Assembly (NCBI GenBank): GCA_937859745.1
Contig: CALMAQ010000165.1
Coordinates: forward strand, 1 to 36,209
Length of the DNA: 36,209 nucleotides
Origin: an uncultured Verrucomicrobiota bacterium
Lineage (GTDB): Bacteria > Verrucomicrobiota > Verrucomicrobiia > Chthoniobacterales > SZAS-18
Direction of reading: 5' to 3'
Made by a program: the position numbers and the translations under genes. Below are positions 6,194-15,025 of the stretch, piece by piece; within the stretch, counting starts at the first letter, position 1, and every line of letters starts with the position of its first letter. The notes beneath the pieces were generated by a model that saw only the letters and a list, made by a program, of their open reading frames with translations, was not told where the DNA came from and ran no database searches.

Positions 6194-6265
6194 AATGCCG
6201 GGCTGCACGCGGCAGCTCGGTCAGAAGGCTTGCCCGTCATGCGAGAGGGTGCTAGAAGCGCCCTT

Positions 6266-7816
6266 ATGTTCCGTTCTCCCGTCATCGCCAGTTTCCTGGT
6301 GGAGGGACTCCGGGCGGACCTGACGGCCGAAATCTTGCTCGCCGCCCTCGTCAGCTACCTGCTGCTGGTGGCGGTGGGCCGGTTGCTCAAGCGGCGCCTC
6401 GGCGCGCGGCTGGGCCGGGTGTACCAGATCTGCGCGGTGGCGCTCGGTCCCTACCTGGCGATGGTGTTGCTGAGGGTCGATGTGCCCGGTCGGCGCGAGC
6501 TGGGAGCGGTGGCTGCGCTGCTGGGCAGCGGTGTGGCGTGCAGGCTGATCGATCAGTTTTTCTGGCGCTGGTATTTCGAGGAGCGGCGTCGGGCCGCCGT
6601 CCCGAAGTTGGTCCGGGAGATGACCGCCGGGGTCCTGCTCCTGGCCGCAGGGCTGCTCGTGCTGGAATTTGGCTACGGCGTCCGCGTGCCTGGCTTACTC
6701 GCGGCTTCCGGGGTGGTAGGCATCATCCTGGGCTTTGCCTTGCAGGACTCTCTGGGCAACGTCGTCGCCGGGTTTGCCTTGCAATTCGGCCGGCCCTTTA
6801 CGGTGGGCGACTGGCTGCTGATCGACAACCGGCACGTGCGGGCTGTCGAGATCAACTGGCGTTCGACCCGGTTCATCACGGCCGACGACGTGCAACTCGA
6901 TGTGCCCAACCAGCAGATCGTGCGGCAGACGTTGGTGAACTTCCACGGCGGCAACACCCGGCACGCCATGCGCCTGGAAATCGGCTTGGACTACGATACA
7001 CCGCCCAACCTGGTCAAGGACCTACTCGTGCGCGCCGCCTCCTCTGCGAGAGAGGTCCTCGATCAGCCGACGCCGAGCGTCTTCCTGAAGGAGTTCGGGG
7101 AAAGCGCGGTCATCTACGAGGTGCGTTTCTGGCTGGACGACCACCGCCTCCATGCGGCTGCCGCCGATGCGGTGCGCACGAACATCTGGTACGCTCTGCG
7201 CCGCCAGCGCATCAAGATTCCCTACCCGACCCGCCAGTTGCACGTCGAGCGCGCCCACAAACCCCTGCGCGAGCACTTGGAATCCGCCGAGGAACAACGC
7301 GCGAGCGCCACCCAACAGCTCCTGCGCGCTCAACCGTTGTTCCAGAGCGTCGGGGACGATCACCTCAAGCAACTCGTTATACGTTCTGCGGCTCACCACT
7401 ACGGGCGCGGTGAATCGATCATCAAGGAAGGTGCCGAGGGCTCCTCGATGTTCGTGCTGATCAAGGGCGAGGCGCGCGTCAGCGTGCTGCACGGCGACGC
7501 CTCCACCTGGCTGGCTTCCTTGCACAGCGGCGACTGTTTCGGTGAGATGTCACTGCTCACCGGCGAGAAGCGTAGCGCCAGCATCTACGCCGTGACCGAT
7601 TGCGAGGTGATCGAGATCACCAAACCCTTGTTCGCGGAGATTTTCACGCGCGATTCCGGGCTGCTCCCGCGGTTGAGCGAACTGCTGGCCAGCCGACAGA
7701 TGCAGACGGAAGGCATCGTGCAGGCGGCGGTTCAGCAAACCGGGGTCCTGGCGGCCAAGGAAGAGGCATATCGTGCTGGGTTCGTGGACAAACTCAAATC
7801 CTTCTTCGATCTGTAG
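6266..7816 (+). CDS. MscS-family mechanosensitive channel with C-terminal cyclic-nucleotide-binding domain
   Basis: GVVGIILGFALQDSLGNVVAGFALQFGRPFTVGDWLLID (MscS pore/beta domain); C-terminal GEARVSVLHG...LHSGDCFGEMSLLTGEKRSASIYAVTDCEVIEI (CNBD). Start uncertain (6239 or 6266). Confidence 0.88.
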   Translation: MFRSPVIASFLVEGLRADLTAEILLAALVSYLLLVAVGRLLKRRLGARLGRVYQICAVALGPYLAMVLLRVDVPGRRELGAVAALLGSGVACRLIDQFFWRWYFEERRRAAVPKLVREMTAGVLLLAAGLLVLEFGYGVRVPGLLAASGVVGIILGFALQDSLGNVVAGFALQFGRPFTVGDWLLIDNRHVRAVEINWRSTRFITADDVQLDVPNQQIVRQTLVNFHGGNTRHAMRLEIGLDYDTPPNLVKDLLVRAASSAREVLDQPTPSVFLKEFGESAVIYEVRFWLDDHRLHAAAADAVRTNIWYALRRQRIKIPYPTRQLHVERAHKPLREHLESAEEQRASATQQLLRAQPLFQSVGDDHLKQLVIRSAAHHYGRGESIIKEGAEGSSMFVLIKGEARVSVLHGDASTWLASLHSGDCFGEMSLLTGEKRSASIYAVTDCEVIEITKPLFAEIFTRDSGLLPRLSELLASRQMQTEGIVQAAVQQTGVLAAKEEAYRAGFVDKLKSFFDL

Positions 7817-7837: not shown

Positions 7838-9019
7838 TCAACGGTACAAAGGATGGTCCAACCAGTACGGATCGGCGACCCCGCGCCGGTATGCTTCGAG
7901 CGAATCCGGCGACGAGTTGATGCGGAGGTTGCTGTAAAGCTGGGTGGGCGAGTTTTGCCATCGCTCGTTCCAGTAGATTGCCGCCTTGATCCGCGGATAG
8001 GATTTGATCATGCCCTCAAACCCCTCGCTGATGAAGTCTGCCTTGCTGCCGTTGTTGGGGAACTCGCCACAACCCCACTCCGTCAGCATCATCGGCTTGT
8101 TCGCATCGACGGCGGCCAACTCGGCATAGGGTTTGTCAATCATGTCCTCGAACTCGTCCCACTTTCCTTTGGGGTACATCTCGCCGTAAACGCTTAGTCC
8201 CATCCAATCCACATAGTCCGGTCCCGGGTAAAACTCCTTGAAGGCGTTCCAGGGTTCGTATGGTTCGCTATAATTGTTCACGTGGAAGACCCAGAGGATG
8301 TTGTTTGCGCCCCGCGCGCGCACTCGGTCCACGATGTATCGATAAGTCCGCTTGAAGAACTCCGGTCCGGCGTATCGTGGCGGGTTGGTGTCGGGGATCA
8401 CTTCCGCCCCCCCGTAGTAGCTAGCCGACCATGGAAACCAGTCGCCGTTCATCTCGTTGCACAACGAGACGAAGATCGGCTTGCGGGCCGCTTTCGCCGC
8501 GTCCGCCCAGGCGTCGATGTAACTGTCCCACTGCCCGGCGACGATGCTGTCGAGCCGGAACTTGTCGGGACCAGCGGCTTCCTTGTAAGGATAATCCCAA
8601 GGCGACCAGAAAATCAGCGGCACCGACCCGTGCGCCATCACGATCTCCGCTTGGAGGCCGGGGAACCTGCCCTCCCCCCACCAACTGGAAAAAGCGATGA
8701 TGGCCTGGTGTTTGCCCGTGTCCGCCTCGAACGCTTCGATCCCTTCGAGCGTCACGTTGTCCTCGGTGTCGCCGAAGTCGATGTAGGCACCCGTGTACGC
8801 GCCCTGCGAGGGCACGAGCAGCGTGAGAAGCGCGCCTAGTCCGGGCGGTGGCGTCTCGTGGGTGGCAGGCGTCTTCCCGCACGCCGCCAGCAAGAAGGCG
8901 AGCGCCAGCAGCCCGGCGGTCGAGCCACCCCGGGCGACGGCGGCTCGGATGAACCTGCCGTGCGGTCGGCGCACTTGTGTTCCGATCTTCATCTTTTTGC
9001 GTCCGCACCCTCGCTTCAC
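7838..9019 (-). CDS. GH26-like (beta-mannanase-like) lipoprotein
   Basis: Lipobox LLALAFLLAACGK; GAYTGAYIDFGD, IIAFSSWWGEGRFPG, NEMNGDWFPWSASYYG, LTEWGCGEFPNNGS. Confidence 0.72.
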   Translation of the reverse strand: MKRGCGRKKMKIGTQVRRPHGRFIRAAVARGGSTAGLLALAFLLAACGKTPATHETPPPGLGALLTLLVPSQGAYTGAYIDFGDTEDNVTLEGIEAFEADTGKHQAIIAFSSWWGEGRFPGLQAEIVMAHGSVPLIFWSPWDYPYKEAAGPDKFRLDSIVAGQWDSYIDAWADAAKAARKPIFVSLCNEMNGDWFPWSASYYGGAEVIPDTNPPRYAGPEFFKRTYRYIVDRVRARGANNILWVFHVNNYSEPYEPWNAFKEFYPGPDYVDWMGLSVYGEMYPKGKWDEFEDMIDKPYAELAAVDANKPMMLTEWGCGEFPNNGSKADFISEGFEGMIKSYPRIKAAIYWNERWQNSPTQLYSNLRINSSPDSLEAYRRGVADPYWLDHPLYR

Positions 9020-12000
9020 ACCCGCGACGGCACCTTGACCGAAGCGGTCCGCTCCAGTTTACCCCAGCCCACCAGCACACCGCGCACGGCGTTGACGATG
9101 GACTTCCAGACGACCCAGCTCAACAGCGGACGATAGATCAGACGCATCGGGATCATGATCCAACTGCGCCGCAGGGGCTCTTTTTCCAGCGCGCAGGCCA
9201 GCATGGCCAGCATCTGGTCGAGCACCAGGAACGTCAGGAAATAAGGCAGGACCGCCCCGCCGTCCCCCAGCAGCACGGACGCCAGCAGCAGCAAATCGAC
9301 CATCGGAGTCAGGGCGACCAAGATAATCTGGAAAAACCAGATGCTCGGCAGGCTGAAGAAGCCCAAGGCGCGGAACCTGGGATTGAACAGCATGTCCCGA
9401 TGTTTCCAGAGACATTGCATGGTGCCGAAGCACCAACGGAATCGCTGCTTGGCCAAGGAGCTGATCGTCTCGGGCGCTTCCGTCCAGGCCACGGCACCAG
9501 CCATGTAGCGGACGTGGTAGCCGTGCCGGTGCAGGCTCAGGGTCAGGTCGGTGTCTTCCGCCAGGGTGTCGGAACGGAACCCGCCCACGGCGCGCAACGC
9601 CTGCCGGCGGACGGCGCTCACCGCGCCGGGCGCGACCGTGATGCAGTTCCAGGCGTCGTAGGCGCGCCGGTCCAGGTTGAACCCGCAGATGTATTCCAGC
9701 GACTGGCAGCGCGCGACGAAGCTCCGCAGATTGCCCACCCGGGCGTGCCCGGAGACCGCGCCAACCTGCGGGTCAGCAAATGGGGCGACGAGGTGGCCCA
9801 ACGTGTCGGGTTGGAAATGGGTGTCGGCGTCGAGGAAGACCAGCAGATCGTGCGCGGCCAGGTCCACGCCGCGCCGCAGCGCCTCGCTCTTCCCCGCGTT
9901 GTCCTGGTTGAGCAGCCGGATCCGGTTGTCCCTGGTGACCGCCGCTTCCACGACGCCAGCCGTGCTGTCTTTCGAGCCATCGTTGATGACGAGCACTTCC
10001 ACGTCGCCGGGATAGTCGGTGGCGAGCACCGAGTCCAGCGTGGCAGCGATCACTTTCTCCTCGTTGTAGGCCGCGATGATGACGCTCAGCGGGAAAACGC
10101 CGGGGTGCCCACCCACCCCGGCCGGTGGGGAACCGGCGGCCGACGGCGCGGCGCGGCGATGCCGGAGCGCCAGATAGATGATGAGTAGCGTCCGCAGCAC
10201 GATCATGATCGTCGCCACAATCATGAACGCCCACAGGAAGCTGAACGCCGCGTGCAGGGCGCGGAAGCCGATGCCGCTGGCGACCCTCGCCAAGGATTGG
10301 TCGCCCGCTTTCAGCAGCGGGTTAACCGAGTCGCGGTTCGTGCCGATCAACTCGCTCAACGTCACGATCTGGTCGCCCCGCGCTCGCAGGTAATCGATGA
10401 TCTTGGGCAGGGCTTCGACCGTCTGGGAGCGGTCTCCGCCCGCGTCGTGGAGCAGGATGATGCTGCCGTTGCGGCGCTGCTGCTTGACACGCTGGAAGAT
10501 CACGTCCGCGCCGGGCCGCTCCCAATCTTCCGGGTCGATGCTCTCCATCACCGTGAGGTAGTCGCGGTTCTGGGCGATCACCAGCGGCGTGATCTCCGAG
10601 AGTTCGTTGGGGCGGGAATCCGCCTCGTACGGTGGCCGGAACAGAGTGGTGGCCCTGCCCGTAACCGTCTGGAGCAGCCGCTGCGTGGCGTCCAGTTCGA
10701 TCCGCACCCGCTCGGGGCTCACCAGCGAAAGATTGGCGTGGGTGTAGGTGTGGCTGCCGAATTCGTAGCCCTCGGCGACCAAGCGGCGCGCCACGCCGGG
10801 ATAGTTCTCCGCGTTCTGACCGATCAGGAAGAACGTCGCCGGGACGTGCTTTTCCTTGAGGATGTCGAGGACCTTTGGCGTCCACGTCGGGTCGGGCCCG
10901 TCGTCAAAGGTCAGCACGACCTGGTGTTCGCCGCCCGCGCCTTGGTGGTACAACGTGGGGTAGCGCGGGAACTTGTCGTAGTTCGTGGCTAGCAGGGAGG
11001 TCTTCTCGTCGAGTTCCACCTGCCGGTGCCCGGAGTCGGGTGAGATGTCCGCGGTGACGATCTCGCCTTGGCCGATGTTGGTGATGGCCAGCCCGGTCCG
11101 CAGGTCCTGCAACGCCGCGAGGTCACTCTTGGTCAGCCGGGGGTTGCCGATCATATCCATGGCCGTCCAGAGCAGCGGGTCTTCGGTGCCCAAACGGCTG
11201 ATGGCCAGTCCGGTGAAGCCTTTCGCGCGCGCCGCCCGCGCCTGGTTGAGAAAGCTCGGGGCATCCAGGAACCAGACCTCGTGGTTCACGCCCGCGAGCG
11301 TGTAGTCGAACGAGGGATTGTACTCGGGGGAACCGCTTTCCGTGTTCCCCTCGCCCGCGTAGGCGGCGCGGCTCATGGCGTCGGCGAAACTGATCGTGTC
11401 CGCGCGCTGCCAGCCGGTGCGGTTGGTGGGGGCATCGTCCTTGGGCCAATCATAACCGTAGGTGCCGAGCGAGATGACCCACTGTTCCTGGTCGTCGTAG
11501 CTGGCGATGGCCGAAAGCCAGTTCTCGTACCAGTTCTGCGCCGCCACGGGCCCCGGCGGGTCGCTCTCGGCCACCTGGTCGTGGAGCGAGGCGACGAAGA
11601 AGTCCACCACGTCCCCGAGGGTATTGATGTCGTACGCCTGCCGCTCCTCGCCCACCGGGACTTGGAGCCAGAGCTGGAGCCCGGCGTCGTGGAGCCCGAA
11701 AGACACCTTCGTCAGGAACTTGCTCAGGTCGTCCTGGTAGGCGGCGTCAATGTTCTCCCAGTCGATCAACACCCCGCCCGCATGGATGTCGAGCAGTTGC
11801 CGCTTGAGGTTTTCAACGAAGAGATCCTGCGGTCCCGCAGGGCCGTGGGCCAAGTTCTCCACCGCTTCGGGAACCCGCGTTTCGCCCGAGACGTTCGTGA
11901 GCAAAGGCAGTAGCACCAGGTGCTTGTTGGCCGCCATGAACTGGAGCAGCGGCACGTTATTCTCCCCCGAGAAGGTGCCGTCCGCCGCCGTCAGGGTAAA

Positions 12001-12480
12001 CCACTCCGGGCAGACGTGGGTGATCTTGTCGGCGTGGGCGGAGAGCGAATCGAAGCTGTTCGGGTCCCACCCCACGGTGAAGGCGAGGCGGATCTGGTTG
12101 GAAGGCTTGATCGGGCGCGCGTTCTTCGCCGCCATCTGCTTTTGCAACGCCTCCAGTCGCTGTTTCCCGGCCGGCGTCTGGTAGAACGATTTGATGGCCT
12201 CGGCGTTCGCCGCCGCGGTGGTCGGAGCGACCGCGCCCTGTTTTTGCAACGCCTTGAGCTGTTCCTTGAGCTTCTTGAGCTTCAACGGCAGCACCAGCGG
12301 CGGGGCAATCACCAGCGATTGCACGAAGAACACGGCACCCAGGAAAAGCAGCAGCCCGAGGAGGACCAGCAGACGCCGCGTGCGCGGCCAGCGCTTGCCT
12401 CCAAGGTCAAAAAAGACAGGTCGTTCGCCGAGATTACTGCTCATCGATTCGGAATTCTTCAAAGCAAAAGCGGTTCCCAT
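9016..12480 (-). CDS. Fused GH18-like / polysaccharide deacetylase (CE4, NodB) / family 2 glycosyltransferase membrane protein
   Basis: N-terminal TM, then LAFTVGWDPNSFDSL...GGVLIDWENID (GH18-like); VVLTFDDGPDPTWTPKVLDIL...GSHTYTHANLS...LFRPPYEAD (CE4); PLSVIIAAYNEEKVIAATLDS...VFLDADTHF...LAEDTDLTLSLHRHGY...KQRFRWCFGTMQ (processive GT2 with QxxRW); C-terminal TM helices. 4-nt overlap with the downstream gene. Confidence 0.88.
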   Translation of the reverse strand: MGTAFALKNSESMSSNLGERPVFFDLGGKRWPRTRRLLVLLGLLLFLGAVFFVQSLVIAPPLVLPLKLKKLKEQLKALQKQGAVAPTTAAANAEAIKSFYQTPAGKQRLEALQKQMAAKNARPIKPSNQIRLAFTVGWDPNSFDSLSAHADKITHVCPEWFTLTAADGTFSGENNVPLLQFMAANKHLVLLPLLTNVSGETRVPEAVENLAHGPAGPQDLFVENLKRQLLDIHAGGVLIDWENIDAAYQDDLSKFLTKVSFGLHDAGLQLWLQVPVGEERQAYDINTLGDVVDFFVASLHDQVAESDPPGPVAAQNWYENWLSAIASYDDQEQWVISLGTYGYDWPKDDAPTNRTGWQRADTISFADAMSRAAYAGEGNTESGSPEYNPSFDYTLAGVNHEVWFLDAPSFLNQARAARAKGFTGLAISRLGTEDPLLWTAMDMIGNPRLTKSDLAALQDLRTGLAITNIGQGEIVTADISPDSGHRQVELDEKTSLLATNYDKFPRYPTLYHQGAGGEHQVVLTFDDGPDPTWTPKVLDILKEKHVPATFFLIGQNAENYPGVARRLVAEGYEFGSHTYTHANLSLVSPERVRIELDATQRLLQTVTGRATTLFRPPYEADSRPNELSEITPLVIAQNRDYLTVMESIDPEDWERPGADVIFQRVKQQRRNGSIILLHDAGGDRSQTVEALPKIIDYLRARGDQIVTLSELIGTNRDSVNPLLKAGDQSLARVASGIGFRALHAAFSFLWAFMIVATIMIVLRTLLIIYLALRHRRAAPSAAGSPPAGVGGHPGVFPLSVIIAAYNEEKVIAATLDSVLATDYPGDVEVLVINDGSKDSTAGVVEAAVTRDNRIRLLNQDNAGKSEALRRGVDLAAHDLLVFLDADTHFQPDTLGHLVAPFADPQVGAVSGHARVGNLRSFVARCQSLEYICGFNLDRRAYDAWNCITVAPGAVSAVRRQALRAVGGFRSDTLAEDTDLTLSLHRHGYHVRYMAGAVAWTEAPETISSLAKQRFRWCFGTMQCLWKHRDMLFNPRFRALGFFSLPSIWFFQIILVALTPMVDLLLLASVLLGDGGAVLPYFLTFLVLDQMLAMLACALEKEPLRRSWIMIPMRLIYRPLLSWVVWKSIVNAVRGVLVGWGKLERTASVKVPSRV

Positions 12481-12552: not shown

Positions 12553-13488
12553 TCAAGGCGAACGAGGGGGCGGCACAAGCACATTCAGGCGTTCCTTGTC
12601 CACGCGGATCGTGACGGGCGCGTAGCCCGCCAGTTCGCCGTCCGCCTCGAAGGGCACGTCCTCACCGGAGACGGAATCTACCACCAGCCCGGCGGTTTGA
12701 AAATAGTCCACGTCGGGCAAACCGAGGTGCGTGCCCATGAGAACGTGCTGGATGTAGCGGAAGATGTCCAGGTAGCCCAAGCTCTTGAACACGAGCACGT
12801 CAAGTTTGCCGTCGTCGATCACCGCTTCCTTGAAGACCTTGATCGGCCCGCCGTAGAACCGGCCATTGCCCACCAGTACAAACGAGCCTTCGCGCGTCAC
12901 GCCGTCGCTGGTTACACGCAGCAGCGGCGGGCGGTGCGCGGCCACCTTGGCGGCCGAGATAATGTAGCTCAGCGGCCCGAAGTTCTTCTTGGACGCCCAA
13001 TCGACTCCCGCCACGGCCTGGGCGTCGAACCCGATTCCCGCCAGTTGCACGAAGTAATGCGAATTCGCCCGCGCGAGGTCCACGGCGCGCGTGTGGCCCC
13101 GAGCGATGATCTCCCAGCCACGCTTGAGTCGGTTTCCCGGGATGCCCAGCTCGGCGGCGAACACGTTCATGGTTCCGAGCGGGAGCAGTCCAAGGGTGGC
13201 GTCCGAACCGGCCAGCCCGTTGACGACCTCGTTGATCGTGCCGTCGCCGCCCGCCGCCACGACCGTGCGAAACCCGGCAGCGACTGCCTCCGCGGCCAGC
13301 GCCGCCGCGTCGCCCGGCCCGACCGTCGGACGGATGACCGCCCGCGGGTCGAGGGCCTGGATTTTCTCCCGCAATCCCCTAGAACGCTCGCTGCGCGCGG
13401 CAGGGTTGTAAATCACGAAAACCCGGTCGTCGGACAGGCACCGACTTTCACCCTTCCCTTCCAGGCGCGAGCGATTAGGTTGTTTCAA
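12553..13488 (-). CDS. Diacylglycerol kinase-family lipid kinase
   Basis: VFVIYNPAARSERSRG, VVAAGGDGTINEVVNGLAGSDATLGLLPLGTMNVFAAELGIP, GIGFDAQ. Start uncertain: 13488 is an in-frame TTG; the ORF track extends to 13569, overlapping the divergent gene. Confidence 0.85.
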   Translation of the reverse strand: MKQPNRSRLEGKGESRCLSDDRVFVIYNPAARSERSRGLREKIQALDPRAVIRPTVGPGDAAALAAEAVAAGFRTVVAAGGDGTINEVVNGLAGSDATLGLLPLGTMNVFAAELGIPGNRLKRGWEIIARGHTRAVDLARANSHYFVQLAGIGFDAQAVAGVDWASKKNFGPLSYIISAAKVAAHRPPLLRVTSDGVTREGSFVLVGNGRFYGGPIKVFKEAVIDDGKLDVLVFKSLGYLDIFRYIQHVLMGTHLGLPDVDYFQTAGLVVDSVSGEDVPFEADGELAGYAPVTIRVDKERLNVLVPPPRSP

Positions 13489-13489
13489 C

Positions 13490-15025
13490 GTGAGAAAACT
13501 CGGCTGGTTCGCGGTGAGCGCAGCGGTGGCGGCGATGATTGGCTTCGGTGCCCTGCTGCTCGTCGCCAATCTTTATGTGCAATCGCAGGGCGCGCAACAA
13601 CGCATCCGGCAAATGCTCACCACGGCCTTGCACGTTCCCGTGACGCTGAAGAAGACCACGCTGACCCCCTGGGAAGGTCTGCGGCTCGACGGGATCACCT
13701 TGCAACCGGCGCTGCTACCCTCGGAGGAACACTCACTAGACGGAGCATTGCTGACGGCCGACAGCTTCCGCCTGCGTGCCGCCTGGTGGCCGCTGCTGCG
13801 ATATCGGCGCCTGGAGGTCGAGGCAATCCTGCTCGACCATCCCCGTCTGGTCTGGGCACAGAACCAGGAGGGGCGCTGGGTCTGGCCAGAGGCTTCCCCG
13901 CTGCGTCCCCAAAAGAACGATGCTGCGCTCGCAGTCCCGCCCGCAGATTTAACGCTCCTCCCGCCGGACGCGACCACTTCCACCTCATCGGCCGGAGCGC
14001 CTGCGCCCGCCGACAGGGAGCCGGCCACCCGCGTTGCCCAAGCATCGTCTGTCACGCGGACGCCGTCGCTGACCACGGTGGAAAAGCTCCGGGTACGGCA
14101 TGGCTCGTTCGACCTGCTCAACCAGCAGCGCAAGCTGCTCGGGCGGTTGGAAGAATTGAATCTGGACGGTTGCCTGATGGATGACGGGCAAGCCCGCGGC
14201 GAGTTGCACATTGGCCGTGCGATCCATGCGCGGTCCGGAATCCTGTTGACCAACTTTCGCTCGAACTTCGCCTACGACGAAAGCTCCGGGTTGTCCATTG
14301 ACAACGGCCGCAGCGAACTCGCCGGCGGCGAGTTGCAAGCCGAGTACCGCCTGCGGAGCGGAGAAGCGGGCTCCCCGTTTTCCGCGCGGTGCCGCGTCGA
14401 TGGCGTGGACCTTGCCGAGTTGATCCGGGAAGCGGGCAGCCAGTTGCGGCTGATGGATGGGCGGTTGCAGGGCGGGTTCAGCTTGCAGGGAAGCTCGGAC
14501 AACCCCGAGCACCGGCAGGCGACGGGACAGTTGAGCCTGGTCGGCGCGGAGATCCGCAATTTTCCCGTCCTCCAGCTCCTCGGGGACATGCTCCGCATCC
14601 AGGACCTGAGCCACTTGCAGTTCAAGGAGGCCAAGCTGGATTGCCGCCTCGATGGCGACGAACTCCAGATCGCGCCGCTGCGCTTGGCTTCAAACGACCT
14701 GCAGATTCGCGCCGAGGGCCGGTATTCCACGGGCGAGGACGAACTCGAACTCCATGGCCGGTTAACCATCGACCAGGCCATCAGCCACCAACTGCCGCAG
14801 TTCATCGAGATGAACTTCACCCCGTCGAACGGCGATGCGCCGGGCAGCCGTTACATCGACTTCGACGTGACCGGCCCGCTCGACAAGCCCACCACTAATC
14901 TCTTTGACCGGGTGCTCGCCGGGCCTTCCACTGGCCTCCTACGCAACCTCCTCGCCCCTAAATCGAAGCGGCTACACCCGAAGAACCCGAAAGCGGAAGC
15001 CACCCTGCCGCCCGGCAATCCTTGA
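13490..15025 (+). CDS. AsmA-like envelope protein
   Basis: N-terminal TM (FAVSAAVAAMIGFGALLLVANLYV), then QGAQQRIRQMLTTALHVPVTLKKTTLTPWEGLRLDGITL; repetitive beta-type C-terminus. Confidence 0.6.
   Translation: MRKLGWFAVSAAVAAMIGFGALLLVANLYVQSQGAQQRIRQMLTTALHVPVTLKKTTLTPWEGLRLDGITLQPALLPSEEHSLDGALLTADSFRLRAAWWPLLRYRRLEVEAILLDHPRLVWAQNQEGRWVWPEASPLRPQKNDAALAVPPADLTLLPPDATTSTSSAGAPAPADREPATRVAQASSVTRTPSLTTVEKLRVRHGSFDLLNQQRKLLGRLEELNLDGCLMDDGQARGELHIGRAIHARSGILLTNFRSNFAYDESSGLSIDNGRSELAGGELQAEYRLRSGEAGSPFSARCRVDGVDLAELIREAGSQLRLMDGRLQGGFSLQGSSDNPEHRQATGQLSLVGAEIRNFPVLQLLGDMLRIQDLSHLQFKEAKLDCRLDGDELQIAPLRLASNDLQIRAEGRYSTGEDELELHGRLTIDQAISHQLPQFIEMNFTPSNGDAPGSRYIDFDVTGPLDKPTTNLFDRVLAGPSTGLLRNLLAPKSKRLHPKNPKAEATLPPGNP

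Follow-up and report, generated by a model that had tools for sequence, protein, structure and literature searches.

Synthase-dependent exopolysaccharide systems are best known from models in proteobacteria and firmicutes, where they comprise at least four genes. In the cellulose and alginate operons, BcsZ/CcsZ and AlgL are polymer-cutting enzymes encoded with their synthases. An active hydrolase inside exopolysaccharide operons is a recognised theme (PMC5933820). Fusions of glycosyltransferases to PgaB/IcaB-like deacetylases, without pgaA and pgaD, are reported in passages of Bundalovic-Torma et al. 2020 (PMC7112194), according to which other export routes may exist for them. Here we analyze a window, a stretch of 36,209 nucleotides from an uncultured Verrucomicrobiota bacterium, in which a GH18-like/CE4/GT2 fusion gene (9016-12480, minus strand) is followed by a gene for an exported GH26 (lipo)protein (7838-9019, minus strand). 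The module is a real, conserved and coherent variant among synthase-dependent exopolysaccharide modules. We give a probability of roughly 60% to the reading that the pair is a compact two-gene module of this kind, producing a partly de-N-acetylated GlcNAc-type polymer that is cut by the GH26. Such a system of only two genes, one of them the constant GH26 partner, found across Verrucomicrobiota and in deltaproteobacterial MAGs, is a small testable unit. It raises the questions of which polymer is made by abundant soil and freshwater Verrucomicrobiota, how it exits without a known porin and whether a GH26 can act on amino-sugar polymers, and the GH26 partner could yield a new biofilm-cleaving enzyme.

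The locus resembles PgaABCD of E. coli, since a PgaC-related GT2, a CE4 deacetylase and a hydrolase are encoded in the same operon. However, synthase and deacetylase are here fused in one protein and in another order, the CE4 is NodB-like, and a GH18 domain plus a separate GH26 replace GH153. PgaA and PgaD were not found. In the genome of the window, which is 90.6% complete, nothing exceeded the cut-off for PgaA (TIGR03939; weak generic matches only), and both PgaD (PF13994) and the PgaB hydrolase domain GH153 (GHL13, PF14883; E. coli control matched) are absent. There is no outer-membrane exporter gene near the locus. The chitooligosaccharide pathway of rhizobia is also similar, the CE4 being 41% identical to NodB and the GT2 28% to NodC, but the rhizobial enzymes are separate proteins, come without GH18 or GH26 and make an oligomer. 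As with BcsZ/CcsZ and AlgL, the principle would be that a synthase gene is accompanied by one for an enzyme that cuts the product, although these belong to other hydrolase families and act on other polymers. The clades of PMC7112194 have in common with it a Gram-negative fusion of glycosyltransferase and deacetylase without an outer-membrane pore gene; the glycosyltransferase is N-terminal there and C-terminal in the window fusion, and the passages covered of that paper describe neither a GH18 domain nor a GH26 partner.

It had been supposed that the fusion architecture may exist elsewhere in databases, and it does. Records from Sphingobium, Novosphingobium, Deinococcus, Prevotella and Sulfitobacter contain proteins annotated as 'glycosyltransferase' that have the same GH18-CE4-GT2 architecture, over 87-90% of the length and with 30-37% identity. 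No GH26 lies beside these fusions where the neighbourhood was read. The fusion alone already has database entries, and the novelty lies in its fixed GH26 partner. No title or abstract describing GH18-CE4-GT2 fusions or a link between GH26 and exopolysaccharide was found in an open-access library. Beyond Verrucomicrobiota, the distribution is drawn from records of plasmids and a single pattern scan. On a Sphingobium plasmid (AP027340.1, locus L079, 6827-13453), the genes after the fusion, which overlap or nearly overlap, encode a VirJ-family protein and a lysyl-phosphatidylglycerol synthase, possibly a different partner set. On a Sulfitobacter plasmid (L082, 5752-11552), a DUF3131 protein follows the fusion with a 4-nt overlap and is perhaps a different companion enzyme in the place of GH26.

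Architecture of the fusion protein and its GH26 partner

The fusion ORF encodes 1154 aa and overlaps the GH26 gene by 4 nt, both exactly as the sequence-only reading had stated. Relatives begin at Met13 (~12444), which is the likelier start, so the natural protein probably has 1142 aa. The overlap is a GTGA stop/start (9016-9019, minus strand), GTG being the start codon of the GH26 gene, and an alternative ATG start for the latter lies 23 nt past the fusion stop. All domains of the fusion are encoded on the minus strand. The N-terminal transmembrane anchor (residues 40-58; 12307-12363) was assigned by hydropathy and corresponds to a helix at 32-57 in the predicted model. It is followed by a GH18-like domain of YaaH/SleL/chitinase type (residues ~130-440, with DWE at 240-242; 11161-12093), a NodB-like CE4 polysaccharide de-N-acetylase domain (516-716; 10333-10935), a transmembrane segment (737-772), a GT2 processive synthase domain (795-1020; 9421-10098) and the C-terminal membrane helices of the synthase (1021-1150; 9031-9420). 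This three-domain organization, proposed earlier, was borne out by Pfam, phmmer and Foldseek. Pfam matches cover residues 516-619 for CE4 (E 1.6e-35) and 798-1019 for GT2 (E 2e-36). The GH18 domain has no Pfam match above threshold in the fusion protein; by phmmer, residues 132-441 align with the solved chitinase 5jh8 (E 5.6e-17) and SleL is also matched, and in a Foldseek search with the predicted model 5jh8 (TM 0.87 by target) and SleL are top-ranked.

The catalytic motifs of CE4 (D526, D527, H577, H581, R615, D652, H678 and D679) and GT2 (D834, DAD 884-886, ED 975-976 and QRFRW 1012-1016) are invariant in 33 of 33 members. The GT2 has all the marks of a processive synthase, that is D, DxD, ED and QxxRW together with C-terminal transmembrane helices. 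The GH18 domain is less conserved, with a mean identity of 43% versus about 60% for the other domains. Its acid position is E in 19 members, whereas Q, S, G and N occupy it in 5, 4, 3 and 2, respectively; the acid residue is thus gone in 14/33, and the idea that the GH18 is active in all members is not supported. The window protein retains D240 and E242, so its GH18 may be active. To judge from the alignment, hydrolysis by GH18 looks dispensable across the family as a whole. This suggests that the GH26 may do the cutting.

Comparisons with PNAG and Nod enzymes point in two directions. The best NCBIfam match of the GT2 is TIGR03937 (PgaC/IcaA), with 184.5 bits versus 93 for NodC and a curated PgaC cut-off of 422. 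Pairwise, it gives 147 bits with PgaC (29% identity to the E. coli protein) and 101 bits with NodC. The CE4 gives 134 bits with NodB and only 29 bits (22% identity) with PgaB, and also scores well against PdaB/PgdA. The proposal that one protein combines the functions of PgaB and PgaC stands as regards a PNAG-like division of labour, given the PgaC/IcaA match of the GT2, and is not supported as regards a direct equivalence to PgaB. As a PgaB homologue the CE4/GH18 part is rejected, since the CE4 is NodB-like, the hydrolase domain is GH18 and not GH153, and no GH153 was found in the 90.6% complete genome.

The GH26 ORF (393 aa) has a signal peptide and a lipobox (LAAC47), the lipobox being absent from about 15 of 35 GH26 members. 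Its Pfam match, above cut-off, covers residues 168-294 (E 1.6e-14), and the predicted acid/base E189 and nucleophile E314 are invariant in 35/35. The sequence-only reading had called this lipoprotein mannanase-like. Its nearest solved relative, by sequence (E 3e-28) and by fold (TM 0.91 by target, 28% identity; predicted model with mean pLDDT 81), is instead the GH26 lichenase CtLic26A (PDB 2BV9, 2CIP). Both rankings place lichenases first and mannanases far behind, and the mannanase assignment is rejected on that basis. CtLic26A shares with it the fold and the acid/base and nucleophile Glu, but is a secreted plant-glucan enzyme, and the His that precedes its acid/base Glu is replaced by N, L, C, V or I in all 35 GH26 members. 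This loss is not clade-specific, as clostridial GH26 matches, chosen by that very peptide, also lack the His. None of the clostridial relatives (27-38% identity) adjoins such a synthase. A second, stand-alone GH26 (~54% identical) was found at G000:C47:7-951, with counterparts in G001, G002 and G004 and no synthase beside it; such paralogues occur in the genus and family of the window.

Conservation of the pair

The fusion/GH26 pairing is well supported. In a tblastn survey that covered the order and public MAGs, almost all fusion loci had a GH26 immediately after the fusion and in the same orientation. The sequence-only reading was to fall if the GH26 neighbour were not conserved in relatives, and this check found it conserved. 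Among 57 relatives, with GH26 presence called at E <= 1e-20, 32 genomes have both genes (an identical set) and 25 have neither. In a sample of 289 genomes from the phylum, the 7 with a fusion are the same 7 with a GH26. Five genera mix species that have both with species that have neither, which indicates that the pair is gained and lost as a unit. Adjacency by itself makes co-loss easy and partly explains co-absence in incomplete MAGs, and the Fisher values for co-occurrence were computed without regard to relatedness. The unlinked and duplicated pairs, the recurrent overlap and the deltaproteobacterial loci described next carry more weight. Two genomes (G030 and G050) carry fusion and GH26 on different contigs and retain both, while another (G003) has two tandem fusion-GH26 pairs (L099), the pair being duplicated as a unit.

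Of 31 non-redundant verrucomicrobial loci, 25 show a 4-nt overlap between the stop of the fusion and a start codon for the GH26 (ATG in 17, GTG in 6 and TTG in 2), which supports translational coupling from the fusion to the GH26, as had been deduced from the window. The arrangement recurs in many genera with protein identities of 40-76%, far above chance. Fusion and GH26 trees show largely the same groups, and the fusions from GH26-bearing genomes form one clade (100/100), to which the fusions on plasmids from other phyla do not belong. Three 'orphan' GH26 loci (L043, L047 and L050) sit in one GH26 subclade with linked copies of the same family. In three deltaproteobacterial MAGs (L042, L044 and L048), the fusion is followed by two GH26 copies; these tandem copies are diverged and do not overlap the fusion, and flanking genes are shared in the MAGs compared. 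At L111 (G022:C84, 6670-10024), the fusion appears as two overlapping ORFs of 797 and 335 aa, with the break where the GT2 begins and the GH26 coming next, which may reflect a frameshift, an assembly error or a true split. At L091 (G046:C177), fusion and GH26 are separated by an ORF of 711 aa in the opposite orientation, either inserted there or called spuriously.

Proposed mechanism and candidate polymers

In the mechanism that we favour, the cytosolic GT2 of the membrane-anchored fusion would polymerise an amino-sugar (UDP-GlcNAc-type) chain, which the fusion would pass across the inner membrane. The periplasmic CE4 domain would de-N-acetylate the emerging chain, and the GH18-like domain may guide it, acting in many members as a binding module and not as a hydrolase. 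The exported GH26 (a lipoprotein here), coupled in translation to the fusion, would then cut the chain after this processing, whether to release it, to set its length or to allow its export, a role that would parallel those of BcsZ, AlgL and the PgaB hydrolase domain in their own systems. This chemistry, with the topology, the sugar identity, the linkage and the action of the GH26 on the polymer of the module, we infer. A GT2 nearest to PgaC and a CE4 nearest to NodB point to a GlcNAc-type polymer, partly de-N-acetylated, and are compatible with both 1,6 and 1,4 linkages. A retaining, lichenase-like GH26 with a Glu/Glu pair could cut glucosamine stretches. Against the module count the lack of an outer-membrane exporter gene nearby, the failure to find PgaA and PgaD in the genome and the missing lipobox in about 15 of 35 GH26 members; moreover, action on amino-sugar polymers is not known to us for any characterised GH26. 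Tentatively, the fusion-linked GH26 clade may have a specificity new to GH26, cutting de-N-acetylated (GlcN-rich) exopolysaccharide as retaining endo-hydrolases and taking over the processing role of a decaying GH18, with the polymer leaving the cell without a known outer-membrane porin. A mixed polymer, as suggested earlier, may be made, and nothing shows one.

A chitosan-like beta-1,4 GlcNAc/GlcN polymer is possible, though we would not presume it. It would be made by NodC/NodB-type chemistry, with the GH18 recognising beta-1,4-GlcNAc and the GH26 cutting de-acetylated stretches. The 41% identity of the CE4 to NodB fits it, GH18 and its SleL/YaaH relatives act on beta-1,4-GlcNAc, CtLic26A cleaves beta-1,4 bonds, and Glu/Glu retaining chemistry requires no N-acetyl group. 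However, the GT2 scores higher with PgaC (147 bits) than with NodC (101 bits), and to our knowledge there is no GH26 chitosanase.

The same affinity of the GT2 for PgaC/IcaA (184 versus 93 bits) argues for ordinary beta-1,6 PNAG, made by fused PgaB/PgaC functions with the GH26 in place of the PgaB hydrolase, and the fusions to PgaB-like deacetylases without pgaA and pgaD in the passages of PMC7112194 cited above would agree with it. We nevertheless find PNAG unlikely: the CE4 hardly matches PgaB, GH153, PgaA and PgaD were not found in the 90.6% complete genome, and the GT2 score is far under the curated cut-off. It is very improbable that the GH26 serves nutrition or defence as a glucanase and is merely co-transcribed with the synthase: GH26 lichenases digest plant glucan and stand-alone paralogues exist in the same genus (G000:C47 and others), but co-occurrence is perfect, the overlap is conserved across large divergence and both genes are retained when unlinked.

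Genes flanking the pair

A lipid-kinase gene (12553-13569; TIGR00147 above cut-off) lies upstream of the fusion and is co-oriented with it. The gap, given earlier as about 70 nt, measures 72 nt for the ORF as annotated and is probably 108 nt, as relatives begin at Met13. The corresponding loci of other relatives contain no homologue of the kinase, and a role for it in the system is not supported; as a part of the module it is rejected, since upstream genes differ even in the same genus. Genes on both flanks of the pair vary between loci, even within one genus. The fusion might modify peptidoglycan or make a glycolipid instead of producing an exopolysaccharide: an upstream lipid kinase would fit a glycolipid, and the GH18 of YaaH/SleL type (closest to chitinase and SleL) and the CE4 with its good scores against PdaB/PgdA recall enzyme types that act on wall glycans, but we hold this for scarcely probable, because the GT2 is a processive synthase with QxxRW and the kinase is not conserved. 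On the other side of the pair, the window contains a fusion of an MscS-type mechanosensitive channel with a cyclic-nucleotide-binding domain (6230-7816, plus strand), convergent to the GH26 gene.
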